DNA of 41,923 bases from Cryomorphaceae bacterium. Its GTDB lineage: Bacteria > Bacteroidota > Bacteroidia > Flavobacteriales_D > Crocinitomicaceae. The notes beneath the pieces are model-generated. The model did no database searches, had not been told where the DNA came from, and saw only the letters and a list, made by a program, of their open reading frames with translations. The position numbers and the translations under genes were made by a program. Each line of letters opens with the position of its first letter. Position 1 is the stretch's first letter. The stretch spans positions 1 to 41,923 of the forward strand of contig JAJTDQ010000001.1 of assembly GCA_021300505.1 (NCBI GenBank). Direction: 5' to 3'. Below are positions 675-29,797 of the stretch, piece after piece.

Positions 675-1319
675 ATGACACGACTCCAAAAAATAGCAAG
701 TAAAGAGTATATCCTCATCCTTTTGCTTCTGATCTTCTATACAGTAGGAACAGTAGGTATTCTTTTGCCCGAATACCGTGAATTCATGCTTCGCTTTTCC
801 GCATTGAATCTATTGGTTTCCATGATTATCTTGATCTTGTCACGGAAGAAGAATGTGCGGCCGTTTTGGCTCATGCTAGCCATTTGTTTCGTTGTCGGCA
901 TCGTGGTTGAATTGATTGGAACTAAGACAGGCTTGCTCTTTGGAGACTATTCCTATGGCTCGACCTTAGGCCCTAAGGTTTTTGGGGTTCCATGGATCAT
1001 CGGCGTTAACTGGGGACTTCTTGTTGTTTGCACTGCATCCCTGGTAAACCGAATAAAAGGACATCTCATTGTCAAGGCACTATTCGCTGCATTGATCATG
1101 ACGGCCATTGACATACTCATTGAACCTGTTGCTATTGAAAATGATTTTTGGACGTGGAAGGCAGGCGAAATTCCGATTTACAATTATATCTGCTGGTTTG
1201 CCATTGCTTTTCCGCTGCAATGGATTAATTTTAGGCTGAAAGCCGTAGAATCGAACAAAGTAGCAAATGGCTTGTTGGTAATAATGACGTTATTCTTTTT
1301 AATTCTGAATATTTTCTAA
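675..1319 (+). CDS. cruF: CruF-type carotenoid 1,2-hydratase (DUF422 membrane protein)
   Basis: A 214-residue integral membrane protein with about six or seven hydrophobic segments. It matches the carotenoid biosynthesis protein (DUF422/CruF) family: the block VVELIGTKTGLLFGDYSYG followed by LGPKVFGVPWIIGVNWG and AIDILIEPVAIENDFWTW is typical. Characterised CruF enzymes add water across the C1',C2' double bond of the acyclic (psi) end of gamma-carotene or lycopene, giving a 1'-hydroxyl. One base separates its stop from the crtZ ATG, so the two are surely co-transcribed. The family call is strong. The exact substrate is inferred from the hydroxylase and cyclase that follow. Confidence 0.85.
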   Translation: MTRLQKIASKEYILILLLLIFYTVGTVGILLPEYREFMLRFSALNLLVSMIILILSRKKNVRPFWLMLAICFVVGIVVELIGTKTGLLFGDYSYGSTLGPKVFGVPWIIGVNWGLLVVCTASLVNRIKGHLIVKALFAALIMTAIDILIEPVAIENDFWTWKAGEIPIYNYICWFAIAFPLQWINFRLKAVESNKVANGLLVIMTLFFLILNIF

Positions 1320-1320
1320 T

Positions 1321-1800
1321 ATGTATTGGTGGGGACCTTTAGTTTTAATCGCAGCGTTTTTGGGAATGGAATTTATGGCTTGGGCAACGCACAAATTTGT
1401 GATGCATGGTTTCATGTGGCATTTTCACTCAGACCATCATGTTGAAGAACCAGGATTTTTTGAGCGCAACGACGTTTTCTTTTTGATTTATGCTATTCCT
1501 TCTTGGCTTTGCATCATGCTCGGAATGATTTATAACCAATACGTACCTGTGTGGATTGGATATGGTATTGCTGCCTACGGTTTAGCCTATTTCATGGTGC
1601 ACGATGTGTATATTCACCGCCGTTTTAAGTGGTTGCGTGACATTGATAATGCTTATTTCATGGCCATTCGTAAAGCGCACAAGGTACATCATAAATACCG
1701 CGGAAAAGAAGACGGAGAATGCTTTGGTATGCTCTTAGTCCCAAAAAAGTATTTTATCGAGGCTAAACGTTATTACCGCAACAAAGCAGCTAGTCAATGA
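1321..1800 (+). CDS. crtZ: Beta-carotene 3-hydroxylase CrtZ
   Basis: A 159-residue member of the membrane di-iron fatty-acid hydroxylase superfamily, of normal CrtZ length. All four histidine clusters that bind the di-iron centre are present: HKFVMH, HSDHH, HDVYIH and HKVHH, set between hydrophobic helices. CrtZ adds hydroxyl groups at C3 of beta-ionone rings, converting gamma-carotene-type rings or beta-carotene to 3-hydroxy derivatives such as zeaxanthin. Its stop overlaps the start of the lycopene cyclase gene (ATGA at 1797-1800), which points to translational coupling. All expected ligands are present, so it is very likely active. Confidence 0.95.
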   Translation: MYWWGPLVLIAAFLGMEFMAWATHKFVMHGFMWHFHSDHHVEEPGFFERNDVFFLIYAIPSWLCIMLGMIYNQYVPVWIGYGIAAYGLAYFMVHDVYIHRRFKWLRDIDNAYFMAIRKAHKVHHKYRGKEDGECFGMLLVPKKYFIEAKRYYRNKAASQ

Positions 1801-2495
1801 GTCTATACGCGTGGGTAATCGTTTGTACCATTCTTGGTCCATTCGCCTTGAGCTTTGACAAAAAGGTTCATTTTTATACTCATTTTCGCGCACTTTTCCC
1901 AGCCATCCTTATCGTTGCTATCGCCTTTCTGGTCTGGGATGAATACTTCACTATTCAAAAGATTTGGGGCTTTAATGATCAATATATTTTTGGTAACAAA
2001 CTAGGTCATTTGCCTTACGAGGAAGTGAGTTTCTTTCTCGTCGTTCCCTTTGCTTGTGTCTTCGTACATGAAGTATTGAAAGCCTACTTCCCTAAAGTGA
2101 AATTAAAGAAGTTTACCCATTATTTTGCATTTGCATTTACCCTCGCAGGATTTTCATTTGGTCTCATGCACATGGAACAATGGTACACGGCAAGTGCTTG
2201 TATCATCAGCGCATTGCTCACGATTGGTATTTATTTCGTGAATAGACCCGCATGGTATACGCAGTTTATCTTTACTTTTTTGGTGGCAATGATTCCGTTC
2301 ATCATCGTCAATGGAATACTAACGGGTGCGGTCACAGACGAACCAATTGTGTGGTATTCCGAAGATCACATCATGGGACCGCGAATCATTACCATCCCGA
2401 TCGAAGACATCTTTTACAATTATTGCATGTTGTTGCCGATTGTGGGTCTTTTTGAGTTGTTCTCGAAACGTTGGAATAAGCAGATGCCTCAATAG
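1797..2495 (+). CDS. crtYcd: Lycopene beta-cyclase, fused CrtYc/CrtYd type
   Basis: A 232-residue membrane protein carrying two copies of the lycopene cyclase domain, the fused form of the heterodimeric actinobacterial CrtYc/CrtYd cyclase. The first copy has the conserved acidic motif LPYEEVSFFLVVP and the second has PIEDIFYNYCMLLP. These paired acidic residues are thought to protonate lycopene and start ring closure. The protein is unrelated to flavin-type CrtY/CrtL. Fused CrtYcd proteins make beta rings on lycopene, giving gamma- or beta-carotene. It overlaps crtZ by 4 bp and its end overlaps the convergent gene at 2489 by 7 bp. The phytoene synthase and desaturase genes that must feed it are not in the window. 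Confidence 0.9.
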   Translation: MSLYAWVIVCTILGPFALSFDKKVHFYTHFRALFPAILIVAIAFLVWDEYFTIQKIWGFNDQYIFGNKLGHLPYEEVSFFLVVPFACVFVHEVLKAYFPKVKLKKFTHYFAFAFTLAGFSFGLMHMEQWYTASACIISALLTIGIYFVNRPAWYTQFIFTFLVAMIPFIIVNGILTGAVTDEPIVWYSEDHIMGPRIITIPIEDIFYNYCMLLPIVGLFELFSKRWNKQMPQ

Positions 2496-3424
2496 AAAAA
2501 ATACTCCTTAAAGCCAAGGATCATTAGAAAATCAGTTTTCACATCGCGTGTAATGACATACTTGAGTAATCGACTTTTCTCGTTATAAATAATCTCAAAT
2601 TCAGTGATGTACTTTCCTTCACGGTAAACACGGCGTTCCTCGAGATTGCCATTTTGATCGTAAGCAAACTGAATTTCCTCTATCGGAGTATCTATACCAT
2701 ACTGAGTCGTAATGAGCGATGACAAAAGCCCTTTTTCATTGTATGCATACGAAATCGTCATTAACTCACCCGTCATGAGTAAACGCTGTTCCTTCTTCAC
2801 CAAATAACCGAGCTCATTGTAATAGGTAAACTCCTCCATGTAGGGCAAACCATAACTATTATAGACGGTTCGCTTGAGCTGTTTTTCGGATTCAGCATAG
2901 CGCATTGTTTCACTATTCAGCTCGGTGCGGCGCCATTTCCCTAAAGTGTCGCGGTATTCTCGGCTGTATGTTTCGCGTACAATTCGTCCTTTTTCGTCGA
3001 ATTCGTAGTGTGTGACTGAATATCCTTTGCCATCTCCAATTTTATGCTCCGACAGTCGACCTTCGGAATCATAGACATAACGATTCCCCGTGGTATCTTT
3101 CGTTCCATCATCTTTGCGTGTCTCGAAGGTTGAGATTAATCGCCCACTTACATCAAACGAATACACATACTCGTAGGTTGTTGCCCGCATCACCTCACCT
3201 GGTTTTTTATACGTAAATGTCCCCCTCAGCTCCTTGATTTTATTTGAACGGATAAAGTCTGAACTAAAAAAAGGGCTATCTGTGAAAGCTTCACCTTTGG
3301 TATTGTCGAGCATCTGACCGAAAGAAGTCCAGGCAAAAAAGAACAGAAGAATAAATGGCCATTTCACCGAACAAAGCACGGGTTTTAGACCTTTACTTTT
3401 CTGCTCATCACAAATTCTTATCAA
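2489..3424 (-). CDS. Exported YD-repeat-like protein of unknown role
   Basis: A 311-residue protein. After a hydrophobic stretch ([16 protein letters not shown]) it consists of beta-rich repeats of the YD/RHS type, such as [45 protein letters not shown] and [13 protein letters not shown]. It is far too short for a full RHS toxin, and it has no RHS core-end motif and no toxin tail. The first codon at 3424 is TTG, overlapping the stop of the upstream DUF255 gene (TTGA). A GTG at 3365-3367 would give a cleaner signal peptide beginning [13 protein letters not shown] and is my preferred alternative start. It is probably periplasmic or outer surface. Function unknown. Confidence 0.7.
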
Positions 3425-5439
3425 TAGCCTGTGTTGGATAACTGTTTTCGCACCTCATCCAACTTGGAAGTTGGCATCAAACAAGCGCCATCTGTGCAGA
3501 CGTAAACCATGGTTTTATCCATAATTGATTTGTCTTGAAGTACTGGAATCGAAAGATCTAATCCTCCACAAAAAATCGCATGAGGTAAATAATCCTTAAG
3601 TAGGGCTTGATGCATTTCTTGTACATCACTCCCAACGATGGCCAATTGAAACGACGGACAAGTAAACTGCATCAGCAATGAACCCCAGCCTGAATATCCA
3701 GATCCATATTGTTCCATACCATCATGAATATTCATGAGCATTTGCTTGGCATCTTGTGTGTACTCCTCCTTGTGAAACAGTTCTCCTAATCGATAAAAAT
3801 TTGTTGCCATCAATGAATTACCCGAAGGAAGAACATTGTCGTTCAGGTCCATTTTGCGCGCAATTAAAGTAGAGTTCGCTGCCGTGAAATAGCACATTTT
3901 GCTGTGTGCATCTTGAAATTCGGAACGAACAGTTTCTGACAAATCCATCGCTAGATCTAACCACGAACGATCGAAGGTAATGCTGTACAAATGAATAAAT
4001 GCCTCAATGACATGTGCATAGTCTTCCAAAAATCCTTCTATGTGTTTCTCTTCCGAGCCTGCGCTGCGCAGCAATTTTCCGTTATGAATTCGCGCGCTTA
4101 CAATCCAACGTGCGTTTTTCAAGGCCAGGTGCAAAAACTCCTCATCGCCGAAGGCACCATAGGCATCGCAAAGCCCTGTGATGACCATCGCATTCCATGA
4201 GGTCAATCGCTTTGTGTCTAGCCCTGGTCGAATGCGATGTGACCGTTCATCCAACAAAATCCCATTGATCCGCTTGATTTGCTTCTCTAGTTCTTCTTCA
4301 TCCCAACCTTTTTTGCGCATCACCTCCACGTCAGAACTCGTTCTTAAAGGGATATACTTTTCATCCTCCCAATAGCCACGCTGGTTGATGTTGTAAAATT
4401 CCAATACCCACTGATCTTCCTTCGAAAGTACTGTAGACATTTCACTTGGATTCCAACAATAGAATTTACCTTCTTCACCCTCGCTATCGGCATCCAAAGC
4501 AGAATAAAATGCCCCATCCTTCGATAACATTTCCCGTTGTAACCATTCCACTATTTGATAGACGGTGCGCTTGTATAGAGGCTTCTTGAAATGACGAAAC
4601 GCATTCGCATACAAAGAGATAAGTTGACCATTGTCGTAGAGCATTTTCTCAAAGTGAGGCACTTTCCATAGCATGTCTACCGAGTAGCGTGTAAATCCGC
4701 CACCAATCTGATCGTAAATACCTCCCATTGCCATTTTATCTAAAGTCAGTTCAACATGACGTAGCGTTTTTTCATGATCGAAGCGCACACCATAGTGCAG
4801 TAAAAACTGATAATTAGACGGCAGGGGAAACTTTGGTGCACGTGCATCTCCGCCTTCCGAGATATCAAAACTTCGCGACCACCTCAGGACCAATTCGTGT
4901 AATTTTTCCTGGGTGAGATCTTCATTTTTTACTGGTTCATCAATAAGCTCATGCAGAACAATGCCTTCGTGCAATTTTTCCGCATACGACACTGCCTTGT
5001 CAAGGTCAGTGCGAAAGGTATGGTCCAAAGAACGAAGAATGTGCATCCATTGGTCCTTCGGGAAATAAGTCCCACCATAAATTGGGCGTCCATCCGGCAA
5101 TGTAAAACAATTCAAAGGCCATCCACCCCGTTGCGTCATGAGTTGGACTGCTGTCATATACACCTGATCAACATCAGGCCTTTCCTCACGATCCACTTTT
5201 ACATTGATGAAATGTTTATTCATCAACGCAGCAACTTCCTCATCTTCAAAACACTCATGTTCCATCACATGACACCAATGACACGCTGAGTACCCCACAC
5301 TAATGAGTACAGGTTTATTTTCTCGTTTCGCACGCTCAAAAAGATCATCACTCCAGGGAATCCATTGAACTGGATTATGGGCATGTTGACGTAGGTAAGG
5401 GGATGATTCTTTGATCAATTCATTGGTGTACTTCTCCAT
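3421..5439 (-). CDS. DUF255 thioredoxin-fold protein (YyaL/SPATA20-like)
   Basis: Member of the DUF255/YyaL family (672 residues from the preferred start). It has an N-terminal thioredoxin-like domain with the motif [10 protein letters not shown] (Cys53, Cys56), preceded by [19 protein letters not shown] and followed by [10 protein letters not shown] and [15 protein letters not shown]. The rest is an (alpha/alpha)6-barrel similar to N-acylglucosamine 2-epimerase or glycoside hydrolase folds (for example [22 protein letters not shown]). The biochemical role is not established; a redox or sugar-related function is usually suggested. I chose the ATG at 5437-5439 ([13 protein letters not shown], the family N-terminus). 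An upstream in-frame ATG at 5463 would add eight residues but lies inside a terminator hairpin. Length is typical. Confidence 0.9.
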
Positions 5440-5488
5440 GGTGCAAAAAAACAAAAGCTCCACACGATATACAAATCTTGTGGAGCTT
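5440..5488 (-). terminator. Rho-independent terminator after the AsmA-family gene
   Basis: The 10-bp perfect inverted repeat AAGCTCCACA (5455-5464) and TGTGGAGCTT (5479-5488) encloses a 14-nt loop. On the minus strand it is followed by the T-rich tract TTTTGTTTTTTTG, which runs to 5445. This is the expected layout for the end of the AsmA transcript (stop at 5508). The T-tract finishes only a few bases before the DUF255 ATG, so that gene needs either read-through or a promoter overlapping the terminator. Confidence 0.75.
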
Positions 5489-27768: not shown

Positions 27769-28179
27769 ATGCGAGAAGAATTGCTGGGACCAAAAGTAGA
27801 AAAAGTTGGAGTAGCCATCATCGAACAACAGGACGAGGAGGGAAACACGATGTACTACGCTTACCTATTGAATCTCAGAGACGATATCATGGAAGGAATC
27901 ATCATTACCAGCACAGGTTACGGTGAGAATGTCAACACGGGCGAAAAGATCCGCACTTCTACTTTGCGACATTCACTGGAAGTACTATTGCCTCAAGAAG
28001 CAGCAAAGATCGAACCCATAATGGAAGATGTTTTTGCACTTTCCAATGAGTACTGGGTGAGCTTTTGGGTAGATGATGTGATGTACGACAAGAAGTTTAT
28101 CTTCCTACCAGAAACCGTTACGAAAGACAAGATGAAGCCCATTCCACTGTTGGGTGAAAAAGGAATACTAATTAGCTGA
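27769..28179 (+). CDS. Conserved small protein of unknown function
   Basis: A 136-residue soluble, acidic protein starting MREELLGPKVEKVGVAIIEQ. It contains YYAYLLNLRDDIMEGIIITSTGYG and a C-terminal FIFLPETVTKDKMKPIPLLGEKGILIS. There is no signal peptide, membrane segment or catalytic motif. I know no named domain for it, though the layout resembles small conserved Bacteroidota proteins. The ATG at 27769 follows the serine hydrolase stop by 4 nt, so it is the third gene of the lipB operon. Its end overlaps the convergent MerR gene by 8 bp. Confidence 0.75.
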   Translation: MREELLGPKVEKVGVAIIEQQDEEGNTMYYAYLLNLRDDIMEGIIITSTGYGENVNTGEKIRTSTLRHSLEVLLPQEAAKIEPIMEDVFALSNEYWVSFWVDDVMYDKKFIFLPETVTKDKMKPIPLLGEKGILIS

Positions 28180-29044
28180 TTAAAGCGCCAACTTGAGTTG
28201 GTAAATCACTGATTTCGTGAATGCAATCTTTGACAAGGTCCTTACGAGAATTAATTTGAATTCCCCCTGCCAGCACTGGAATTGACTTAAATTCGTAATT
28301 CAATCGCTTGAAATAACTCTGCATGAAATTGTCATCTACAGCAGTAAGCCATGAGGTAACCATGGTTTGAGGTTTCAATCTTTCAATGCATGAACTTAAA
28401 GCATCATAAGGTACGCTTTGACCGAGATACACAGTAGAAAGACCTTTGTCGCGCAGCATGAAATTGTAAAACAACAAGCTGATCTCGTGCTGCTCATGTT
28501 CGGGAAGGAACAACAAGGCGTCAACGGTATTTTTTTCAGGAATAGGTAATCGATCCGTTTCCGAGATGACCTTTTGACGAATCAAATTCGACATGAAATG
28601 CTCCTGTGCCGGATCGATTGTTCCCACCAACCACATGATTCCTATGCGATCCAGAAAGGGAATCAATTTATCGGTAAATGTCTTGGTTAAGCCAACGGTT
28701 TCAATGAGGTCACTCAACGTATCGCGAAAAAGTCGCTCATCCATTTCAATCAATGCCACAATAAGCCGTTCGATAGCGACATCTTCCGATTTTTTTCCGT
28801 TGCACTCCAATACGTGGTGATGGATTTCCTCATTCGACATTGTGGCAATCTTGGAAATCTTAAATCCACAGCGGTTTAGAATGGCGATGTTGATCATTCT
28901 CGTGAGATCATCGTCAGTGTAGGTGCGAATCTGTGTATCTGTGCGTTCAGGGGAAAACAATTCGTACCGTTTTTCCCAAATACGAATGGTGTGCGCCTTG
29001 ATACCGCTCAAAATTTCTAAATCCCGAATCTTATATTCTGCCAT
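28172..29044 (-). CDS. MerR-family regulator with cobalamin-binding domain (CarH-like)
   Basis: A 290-residue regulator. The N-terminal MerR helix-turn-helix (1-75) reads YKIRDLEILSGIKAHTIRIWEKRY. A helical bundle (about 90-165) contains Trp138, nine residues, then Glu148-His149: exactly the Wx9EH motif by which CarH/LitR photoreceptors hold adenosylcobalamin. The B12-binding fold (about 172-285) has LFLPEHEQHEISLLF, where His186 fits the lower cobalt ligand, then YLGQSVPYDAL. In characterised CarH proteins, dark B12-bound tetramers repress carotenoid genes and light breaks the complex. The same use here is inference. It is divergent from a lipoprotein gene. The crt genes at 675-2495 are about 26 kb away. 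Confidence 0.88.
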   Translation of the reverse strand: MAEYKIRDLEILSGIKAHTIRIWEKRYELFSPERTDTQIRTYTDDDLTRMINIAILNRCGFKISKIATMSNEEIHHHVLECNGKKSEDVAIERLIVALIEMDERLFRDTLSDLIETVGLTKTFTDKLIPFLDRIGIMWLVGTIDPAQEHFMSNLIRQKVISETDRLPIPEKNTVDALLFLPEHEQHEISLLFYNFMLRDKGLSTVYLGQSVPYDALSSCIERLKPQTMVTSWLTAVDDNFMQSYFKRLNYEFKSIPVLAGGIQINSRKDLVKDCIHEISDLPTQVGALIS

Positions 29045-29137
29045 CTGCCTACATCAGCGAACGTGAGTAAAAATTGGTTCGCTAAAGCGTTAAACAACGA
29101 TGCGCTTATTTTGTTTAGGATGCAAATGAAAGTTGTG

Positions 29138-29145
29138 TATATTTG
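29138..29145 (+). promoter_or_regulatory. -7 element of the lipoprotein gene
   Basis: TATATTTG is an exact TAnnTTTG match, 28 nt upstream of the ATG at 29174. It sits in the 129-bp region shared with the divergent CarH-like regulator, so binding of that regulator could affect this gene. It rules out the longer in-frame start at 29063. Confidence 0.55.
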
Positions 29146-29173
29146 TTTTAATTCGAATGAATTTCACGCTAAA

Positions 29174-29797
29174 ATGCCTTTATCCATGGGTTATAGTAAT
29201 TCACATATTGTGCGTTTTTCTTGTCTTGGAATCCTGCTTCTCTTTTCTATTGTTGGATTGAACTCCTGTGGAAACGAAGATGAGACCAAGGAACAGTCAA
29301 CCATTAAATTGGATGAAGACTATTACGAATTTCGGGGTATTTCACTTCAACAATACGACATTCCAGCGATGATCATGTTACCCGATGAAACGGCAAACAT
29401 TGGCGCTTCCACTCGTCCGGAGATCGATCATCCCGATAGTTTTTTATGGAGCATCACCCTCGGCGCTAAGTTTAAACTGTACATTGAAGATTTTGGTGAT
29501 TACCGCAACCGTGTGAGCAATAAAAAGAAAGAACTGAAAGAACAAACCTTATTTAAGATCAACTATCTCTTCCAGTCCAACGACTTGATTGTATACGAAC
29601 GCACCTTAATTGTTCGCGGGTCGAAGCAGGCATCGCCAAGTGTTGGTATTGAGCACAAATCGTTTCATGTATACGGGCAAAAAATCATCGATGGGATCAC
29701 GTACGAGTTGCGCAGCAAAGACGAGGGTTGCAGTAAAAATATCGCTGTACTCATGGCGAAATCCATCAAATCATTCAAGGCCCTCGAAATCCGCTAA
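29174..29797 (+). CDS. Hypothetical lipoprotein
   Basis: A 207-residue protein with a lipoprotein signal peptide: HIVRFSCLGILLLFSIVGLNSC, where the Cys in the GLNSC lipobox would be lipidated, followed by acidic GNEDETKE. The mature part is a mixed alpha/beta domain of no family I recognise, with KKKELKEQTLFKINYLFQSNDLIVYERTLI and a late Cys in KDEGCSKNIAVLMAKSIKSF. I chose the start at 29174 (MPLSMGYS) because the frame upstream crosses the predicted promoter; 29186 is an alternative. It is divergent from the CarH-like regulator and 56 nt upstream of mrp. Confidence 0.75.
   Translation: MPLSMGYSNSHIVRFSCLGILLLFSIVGLNSCGNEDETKEQSTIKLDEDYYEFRGISLQQYDIPAMIMLPDETANIGASTRPEIDHPDSFLWSITLGAKFKLYIEDFGDYRNRVSNKKKELKEQTLFKINYLFQSNDLIVYERTLIVRGSKQASPSVGIEHKSFHVYGQKIIDGITYELRSKDEGCSKNIAVLMAKSIKSFKALEIR

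Follow-up and report, generated by a model that had tools for sequence, protein, structure and literature searches.

Background

CarH of Thermus thermophilus, a regulator of carotenoid genes, combines a MerR-type DNA-binding domain with a four-helix/Rossmann cobalamin domain that carries a W-x9-EH motif for the adenosyl group, a lower cobalt ligand (His177) and the upper ligand of a bis-His light state (His132), and the published CarH operator layout consists of tandem 11-bp repeats (nnnnTnnACAn). For the Myxococcales, passages of PMC9304148 give the cobalamin motif as D/ExHx2G/P-x41-SxT/V-x22-27-GG and TnnACA as the contact motif of CarH, whose sites are 11-bp TnnACA direct repeats; they also describe operator design as plastic, propose a site with two inverted repeats for CarA, and report that carH can be unlinked from the crt genes, as in some Sorangiineae. 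Separation of carH from the crt genes is therefore not new in itself. CtMerR of Chloracidobacterium thermophilum is a MerR-type B12 photoreceptor that lacks His132 (PMC11796333). Within the Bacteroidota, a MerR gene stands first in the crt cluster of Nonlabens spongiae, and the passages of PMC11855829 assign it no regulatory function. A possible relative already known from the Bacteroidetes, MliR (PMC9478572), was set aside, as its abstract states that it has no effector domain. No link of CarH or LitR to the control of crt or proteorhodopsin genes in Bacteroidetes was found among the listed titles and abstract beginnings of open-licence papers, and none between CarH and proteorhodopsin is present in the CarH and proteorhodopsin passages of two reviews (PMC12627116, PMC9614035).

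The window analysed here comprises 41,923 nucleotides of a Cryomorphaceae bacterium (GenBank assembly GCA_021300505.1, contig JAJTDQ010000001.1), in which a first-pass annotation had placed a CarH-type regulator away from the crt genes. To our knowledge, light sensing and the switching of carotenoid and proteorhodopsin genes in heterotrophic Bacteroidota are not settled. The regulator resembles Thermus CarH in domain order, W-x9-EH motif, lower-ligand histidine, predicted fold and TnnACA half-site, and differs from it in having leucine for His132, in being unlinked from its putative target, and in an operator built of inverted half-site pairs, not tandem 11-bp repeats. Control of carotenoid genes, known for the Thermus protein, is proposed here from operator and synteny. 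We consider it likely that the protein is a CarH-type AdoCbl-dependent repressor acting in trans on a sigECF-crtI-crtB-idi-PTPS-photolyase operon, and on itself, and released by light. In the dark, a B12-bound oligomer would sit on inverted TTAAACA half-sites over the promoter of that unlinked operon and on a related site in the carH promoter; in the light, the Co-C bond would be split, the oligomer would loosen, and the carotenoid and photorepair genes would be turned on.

Regulator gene and cobalamin pocket

The features of the window are collected in Table 1. The proposed reading of the regulator as a MerR protein with a cobalamin domain was borne out by Pfam, phmmer and the fold match. MerR_1 (46.7 bits, cut-off 21.6) and B12-binding_2 (36.8 bits, cut-off 23) scored above their Pfam cut-offs, the Rossmann B12-binding model alone fell below its own (20.7 bits, cut-off 32.1), and the domain architecture of CarH is present. 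The top NCBIfam match was CarH (NF052513) at 83.6 bits, far from the equivalog cut-off of 400 bits; the protein is thus not the curated NCBIfam CarH equivalog. Thermus CarH was the best solved structure by sequence (phmmer E 3e-14 to 4e-14; about 27% identity) and ranked first in a Foldseek search (E 2.5e-14) with the AlphaFold model of the regulator (pLDDT 90.6). CtMerR, which we take from the entry titles to be PDB 8jbs/8jbt, ranked 13 in Foldseek and is more distant in sequence (phmmer E 4e-4). Homologues were present in 56 of the 60 genomes searched (own included), and the pocket residues are conserved in the 95 homologues compared below, so the reading frame and its motif are not a chance occurrence. 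The genome also encodes an adenosyltransferase (PF01923), and a second MerR gene is located on its contig C47.

Table 1. Features of the window, with positions counted from its first nucleotide
Feature	Position	Strand	Basis
carH-like MerR regulator gene	28172..29044	-	290 aa, ATG start
MerR winged helix-turn-helix DNA-binding domain, residues 4-71	28832..29035	-	PF13411
Four-helix-bundle half of cobalamin domain, residues 91-159	28568..28774	-	PF02607
Rossmann half of cobalamin domain, residues 175-290	28175..28522	-	AlphaFold secondary structure; PF02310 below cut-off
Trp138 (Trp131 of Thermus CarH)	28631..28633	-	alignment
Leu139, in place of light-state ligand His132 of Thermus CarH	28628..28630	-	alignment
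Glu148-His149 (Glu141-His142 of Thermus CarH), remainder of W-x9-EH motif	28598..28603	-	alignment
His186, predicted lower axial cobalt ligand (His177 of Thermus CarH)	28487..28489	-	alignment
Operator-like inverted pair TTAAACA-n15-TGTTTAG (TTAAACAACGATGCGCTTATTTTGTTTAG), between carH and lipoprotein gene	29090..29118	.	1 mismatch to TTAAACA/TGTTTAA
TATATTTG, Bacteroidota-type -7 box of divergent lipoprotein gene	29138..29145	+	read from sequence
Divergent lipoprotein gene, syntenic neighbour of carH in the family; unit membership by position only	29174..29797	+	synteny
Late carotenoid genes (CruF-like, 159-aa frame, lycopene cyclase), no operator found	675..2495	+	family matches

The W-x9-EH motif (W138, E148, H149) and His186 were found exactly where the first-pass annotation had put them; its ligand motif E-x-x-H was in error and reads ExH (E184-x-H186-x-x-S189). 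The full cobalamin signature, E184xH186xxS189-x41-S231xL-x26-G260G261, keeps the published spacing with two substitutions, Ser for G/P and Leu for T/V. The fetched loci yielded 95 distinct homologues, which come from Bacteroidota wherever a name is given. Among them, E148, H149 and H186 were each invariant (95/95); W138 was conserved in 89 and replaced by Phe or Tyr in three each. A more distant, plasmid-borne homologue from Persicobacter (L274:1352-2400) has kept the Trp and lost both the EH pair and the ligand His, and its gene is preceded by a perfect copy of the operator described below. This homologue is possibly a CarA-like member independent of B12; since it keeps the operator with a degenerate pocket, a B12-independent relative probably exists, and for the same reason the operator by itself is no proof of B12 or light sensing.

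Light-state ligand position

Histidine was found at the position of Thermus His132 in 0 of the same 95 homologues, the residues there being Gln (41), Leu (28), Met (8), Val (8), Ile (5) and others (5). Five proteobacterial homologues carried Ala, Arg, Gln, Glu and Glu, and Thermus brockianus carried His. According to passages of PMC11796333, CtMerR (Arg), SasPcob (Gln) and AbDPcob (Tyr) also lack this histidine and have been studied as B12 photoreceptors. Because described B12 photoreceptors and proteobacterial homologues vary here, His132 was not counted as CarH-defining, and the idea that its loss is a speciality of the Bacteroidota was dropped on the same grounds. A Photobacterium locus (L273) was also dropped, as it has no W-x9-EH motif.

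The missing ligand bears on an unlikely alternative, in which the same operators are bound by a protein that has lost light sensing and either reports B12 status or works independently of B12, like CarA of Myxococcus. The absence of His132 throughout the 95 homologues would fit such a protein, as would the replacement of the G of the ExHxxG motif by Ser189, the operator kept by the pocket-degenerate Persicobacter homologue, and the behaviour of the Thermus H132A variant, which mostly stays tetrameric in the light according to passages of PMC10442372, where an earlier report of disassembly is also mentioned. Against it stand the three photoreceptors that lack the histidine, the retention of W138, E148, H149 and H186, and the many operator targets that are light-related (photolyase, carotenoids, rhodopsin). 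The light-released repressor is the preferred reading; light sensing by the window protein, through a route other than bis-His ligation, is plausible by analogy.

Gene order in Bacteroidota

Genes were called and clustered in 125 partially overlapping sources (the window, 64 named loci and 60 fetched loci). In many loci carH is situated directly before sigECF, crtI and crtB, or beside cruF and the lycopene cyclase gene; in this respect they resemble Nonlabens spongiae, where the MerR gene is within the cluster that the window carH has left. In other genera than that of the window, carH stands at the head or border of sigECF/crtI/crtB (L046, L141, L142, L160 and others). In the Fluviicola MAG locus L046, a lipoprotein gene is divergent from carH, which is followed by sigECF-crtI-crtB-idi-PTPS, one further gene and photolyase; L141 has the same arrangement minus sigECF and idi, and in L142 one extra frame separates the lipoprotein gene from carH. 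In the genus of the window, carH is found beside the lipoprotein gene and away from the crt genes in 20 of 23 carH loci (exceptions L172, L174 and L175), and the sigECF-crt operon usually follows purK, with no carH. In the own genome, purK, sigECF and most of crtI are on contig C140, and crtB-idi-PTPS-photolyase is at the end of contig C111. The conserved order means that the regulator is not an orphan by origin; most likely, carH became separated from its crt operon in this genus. The earlier placement of a CarH-type regulator away from the crt genes is thus supported by gene order. Three MAG records labelled Chitinophaga pinensis or Chryseobacterium gleum (L033, L035, L043) contain close relatives of carH within the same gene order and are perhaps mislabelled.

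The divergent neighbour of carH is, as first annotated, an uncharacterised lipoprotein gene: its product has a lipobox-like signal by eye, and Pfam and NCBIfam searches returned no family match for it. Its presence raises the very improbable case that the regulator now serves its syntenic neighbours (lipoprotein, Mrp, NifU and LipB genes) and has lost control of carotenoids. Most loci of the genus do have carH in this neighbourhood, and an operator-like pair is located between carH and the lipoprotein gene. Since the lipoprotein gene already adjoins carH where carH heads the crt operon (L046, L141), it is no evidence for a new target, and perfect operators were found in the own genome only before the crt operon.

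Carotenoid genes inside the window

The first-pass annotation had also listed carotenoid genes at 675-2495. Family searches upheld this for the outer two, a Caroten_synth/CruF-like gene and a lycopene cyclase gene; the middle gene (1321-1800), encoding 159 aa, had no Pfam or NCBIfam match and belongs to a cluster of 26 sequences among the compared loci. The three genes come directly after an epimerase-like gene in the window and after a 336-aa frame in the genome G024. No operator was found before them in the window or in the close relatives G024 and G011. Among 19 loci with the order cruF-159-aa gene-lycopene cyclase, 18 show the region before cruF; an operator was found at or just before the cruF start in four of these (L283, L285, L288, L297), all inexact, and none was found close to cruF in the remaining 14, which include the closest relatives L279 and L290. 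An exact operator precedes cruF in L172. The genes at 675-2495 were accordingly rejected as direct targets, on the grounds of the 14 of 18 loci and of the window itself. Beside them, at 2489-5463, are two large minus-strand frames that have no relatives among the compared loci, the first of them with RHS/YD repeats.

Operator sequence and position

The crt promoters of the genus carry TGTTTAA-n16/17-TTAAACA, usually doubled and lying over the promoter. This candidate operator was present in all 16 of the sigECF-crt promoters of the genus examined, and 15 of the 16 carry four half-sites free of mismatches, arranged as <23>(11 or 12)<(23 or 24)>. When half-site pairs in the <> orientation were counted over all loci, some of which overlap, 84 were spaced at 23 and 17 at 24, with 0 to 9 at every other spacing from 7 to 45. 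Alignment of 86 distinct sites gave extended halves, TTTTGTTTAA and TTAAACAAAA. The half-site TTAAACA contains the CarH contact motif TnnACA; the published tandem layout is not matched by the 86 sites, since a repeat on the same strand at 11 or 22 bp occurs in at most 2 of them. Neither TTAAACA nor a spacing of 23 bp is mentioned in the passages of PMC9304148, where myxobacterial CarH sites are direct repeats.

Half-site placement was compared with that of the promoter. The Bacteroidota -7 consensus is TAnnTTTG. In 15 of 19 crt promoters the start of this box falls in the third half-site (position 38 or 39), and half-sites continue in the direction of the start codon. Half-sites that lie over and beyond the promoter box suit a repressor, and the direction of control is most likely repression, both of the crt-photolyase genes and of carH.

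Apart from the pair at 29090-29118, a predicted autoregulatory site of carH, no element of the scanned forms was found elsewhere in the window. The first-pass annotation had suggested looking for inverted repeats shared between 29045-29173 and the promoter of the carotenoid genes. The pair, with its one mismatch, resembles the crt operator on C140; no counterpart was found before 675-2495. Of 21 regions upstream of carH, 20 from the genus and one from another genus, 13 contain a 22-spaced pair with at most two mismatches, as compared with a mean of 0.2 and a maximum of 2 in 200 resampled sets; the other eight regions fell under the threshold (L182, L184, L185, L187, L189, L191, L193, L200). 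The orientation in the window carH promoter is >22<, and that of the crt form is <23>. The carH gene of L142 and the cruF gene of L172 are each preceded by a single array that combines both forms, <23>22<, the second with two mismatches; for this reason the two forms are read as parts of one alternating array.

Two groups of loci differ at carH. In Larkinella and Runella (L064, L071, L075-L077, L080-L083, L085-L088), carH is situated behind cruF and the TTAAACA pair was not found near carH at the thresholds used; these genera may use a different operator. In the lineage with the order engB-carH-leuS (L037, L038, L039, L041, L093), no operator was found before carH at the thresholds used.

Genome-wide distribution of the operator

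Genome-wide work consisted of pattern searches and family searches. The perfect pattern gave 129 sites in 60 genomes, the own genome included, and the reversed control pattern gave 9. The own genome (2.4 Mb, 85% complete) has exactly two perfect sites, both at C140:6504-6569 ahead of sigECF-crtI, and no control match. As these are the only perfect sites, and a one-mismatch pair is present at 29090-29118, action in trans on crtI-crtB-idi-photolyase and on carH itself is most likely. The first-pass annotation had offered two options, action at a distance on crt promoters or control of a different light-responsive set. The former is supported for the crt operon headed by the C140 site and not for the genes at 675-2495, before which no operator was found. 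The latter looks true in relatives, where rhodopsin and fasciclin genes have sites, and gains nothing from the lipoprotein gene.

Across the 60 genomes, 67 of the 129 sites are within 4 kb of crtB (0.3 expected), including two directly before fasciclin genes (G001, G039) and three before carH (G026, G030, G055), and 8 are within 1 kb of a rhodopsin gene (0.02 expected). The remaining 54 were sorted by hand: 9 are before sigECF on contigs with no crtB nearby, 1 before cruF, 15 before fasciclin genes, 8 before single targets, 6 inside reading frames, and 15 in none of these groups. The six in-frame sites, in frames of 236 to 1115 residues (L264, L299, L300, L301, L303, L316), are probably chance matches, which agrees with the 9 matches to the reversed control pattern. 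In G049 (L155, L156), two CarH homologues occur together with seven perfect operators.

In 150 genomes of the order, with CarH called at a profile E <= 1e-20, a perfect site was present in 109 of 130 genomes with CarH and in 2 of 20 without (Fisher p 1e-10, a guide only, as the compared genomes are related); in 21 of the 130 it was not found. Of the two CarH-less genomes with a site, G040 has it inside a reading frame, and in G091 the control matches equal its sites. Among 21 CarH-less genomes searched, 13 lack phytoene/squalene synthase as well; because loss of CarH often accompanies loss of the crt genes, the correlation in part reflects shared loss. The eight genomes with phytoene/squalene synthase and no CarH had no perfect site. 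Taken on sequence evidence, the regulator-operator system appears real and well supported; we infer that this protein binds the site, that binding would need B12 and that light would release it.

These counts also bear on whether the TTAAACA pair might instead be bound by a different protein, for instance the ECF sigma factor encoded in the crt operon, with CarH a bystander, which we regard as quite improbable. sigECF does follow the site directly in most crt operons of the genus, and the promoter box often overlaps the site. Against this reading, the site is palindromic and multiple, it also precedes carH (e.g. L056, L059, L142) and crtI in operons with no sigECF (exact in L079, L090 and L141, one mismatch in L069), and it is missing from the eight CarH-less genomes with a phytoene/squalene synthase. 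Binding by the CarH-type protein is the reading followed below.

Candidate targets in related genomes

Sixteen genomes had a rhodopsin gene over the cut-off, of which 15 show the upstream region (that of G024 is cut by a contig end). A perfect site was located 46 to 108 bp before the gene in eight of the 15 (G008, G011, G012, G017, G023, G027, G050, G057); these operators (L232, L234, L236, L238, L241, L258, L259, L260) come from the genus of the window, its family and another family of the order. Inexact sites were present in G049 (two, with one mismatch) and G052 (one, with two mismatches), and none was found in G006, G014, G043, G055 or G059 at thresholds of 2 mismatches at spacing 23 and 1 at spacing 24. 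Neither a rhodopsin nor a fasciclin gene was found in the window genome, at 85% completeness.

Outside the carotenoid genes, the operator most often precedes genes for fasciclin-domain proteins, the majority of which have a secretion tail (L235, L237, L239, L243, L244, L245, L246, L261, L298, L306, L308): 17 perfect sites in 16 genomes are 3 to 73 bp before such genes, 15 assigned by Pfam and two (G007, G017) by similarity. G056, which has CarH and no phytoene synthase match, has a single site, before a fasciclin gene. Passages of PMC10147662 concern the fasciclin protein AstaP as a carotenoid binder, and report one cyanobacterial homologue that bound none; carotenoid binding by the fasciclin targets is only a lead. 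The single targets, some labelled by similarity only, were GTP cyclohydrolase I (G051), PTPS (G022), PTPS-GTP cyclohydrolase (G058), a short-chain dehydrogenase (G052), photolyase (G026), a 95-aa frame before photolyase (G049), glutathione peroxidase before photolyase (G058) and a DUF4397 protein (G046). A BshC-like gene, a sigma-70 gene, and genes for secreted PKD/GEVED and outer-membrane proteins also follow a site. Most target functions that recur look like a response to light and photo-oxidation.

Whether a CarH-type photoreceptor serves the Bacteroidota as a general light switch, controlling carotenoid, photolyase, pterin, secreted fasciclin and, in genomes that have them, proteorhodopsin genes through inverted TTAAACA operators with no bis-His light state of the Thermus kind, seems to us evenly balanced. 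Neither the site sequence and layout nor the rhodopsin and fasciclin targets appear in the listed open-licence titles or abstract beginnings, or in the passages of PMC12627116 and PMC9614035. The operator gives a testable map, with target promoters named in many genomes; it predicts that B12 supply would gate the light response, and suggests that a single regulator could serve a light-driven proton pump and its sunscreen. A CarH-like family lacking His132 would also be material for the study of B12-photoreceptor signalling that does not use the Thermus ligand switch.

Independently of the operator, two betaproteobacterial loci were observed in which a CarH-like gene is near a gene of these families: in Eleftheria terrae (L277:1-1379) it is divergent from a fasciclin gene, and in Caballeronia (L275:471-1762) it is followed by a DUF4397 gene. 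Both families also carry the operator in Bacteroidota.
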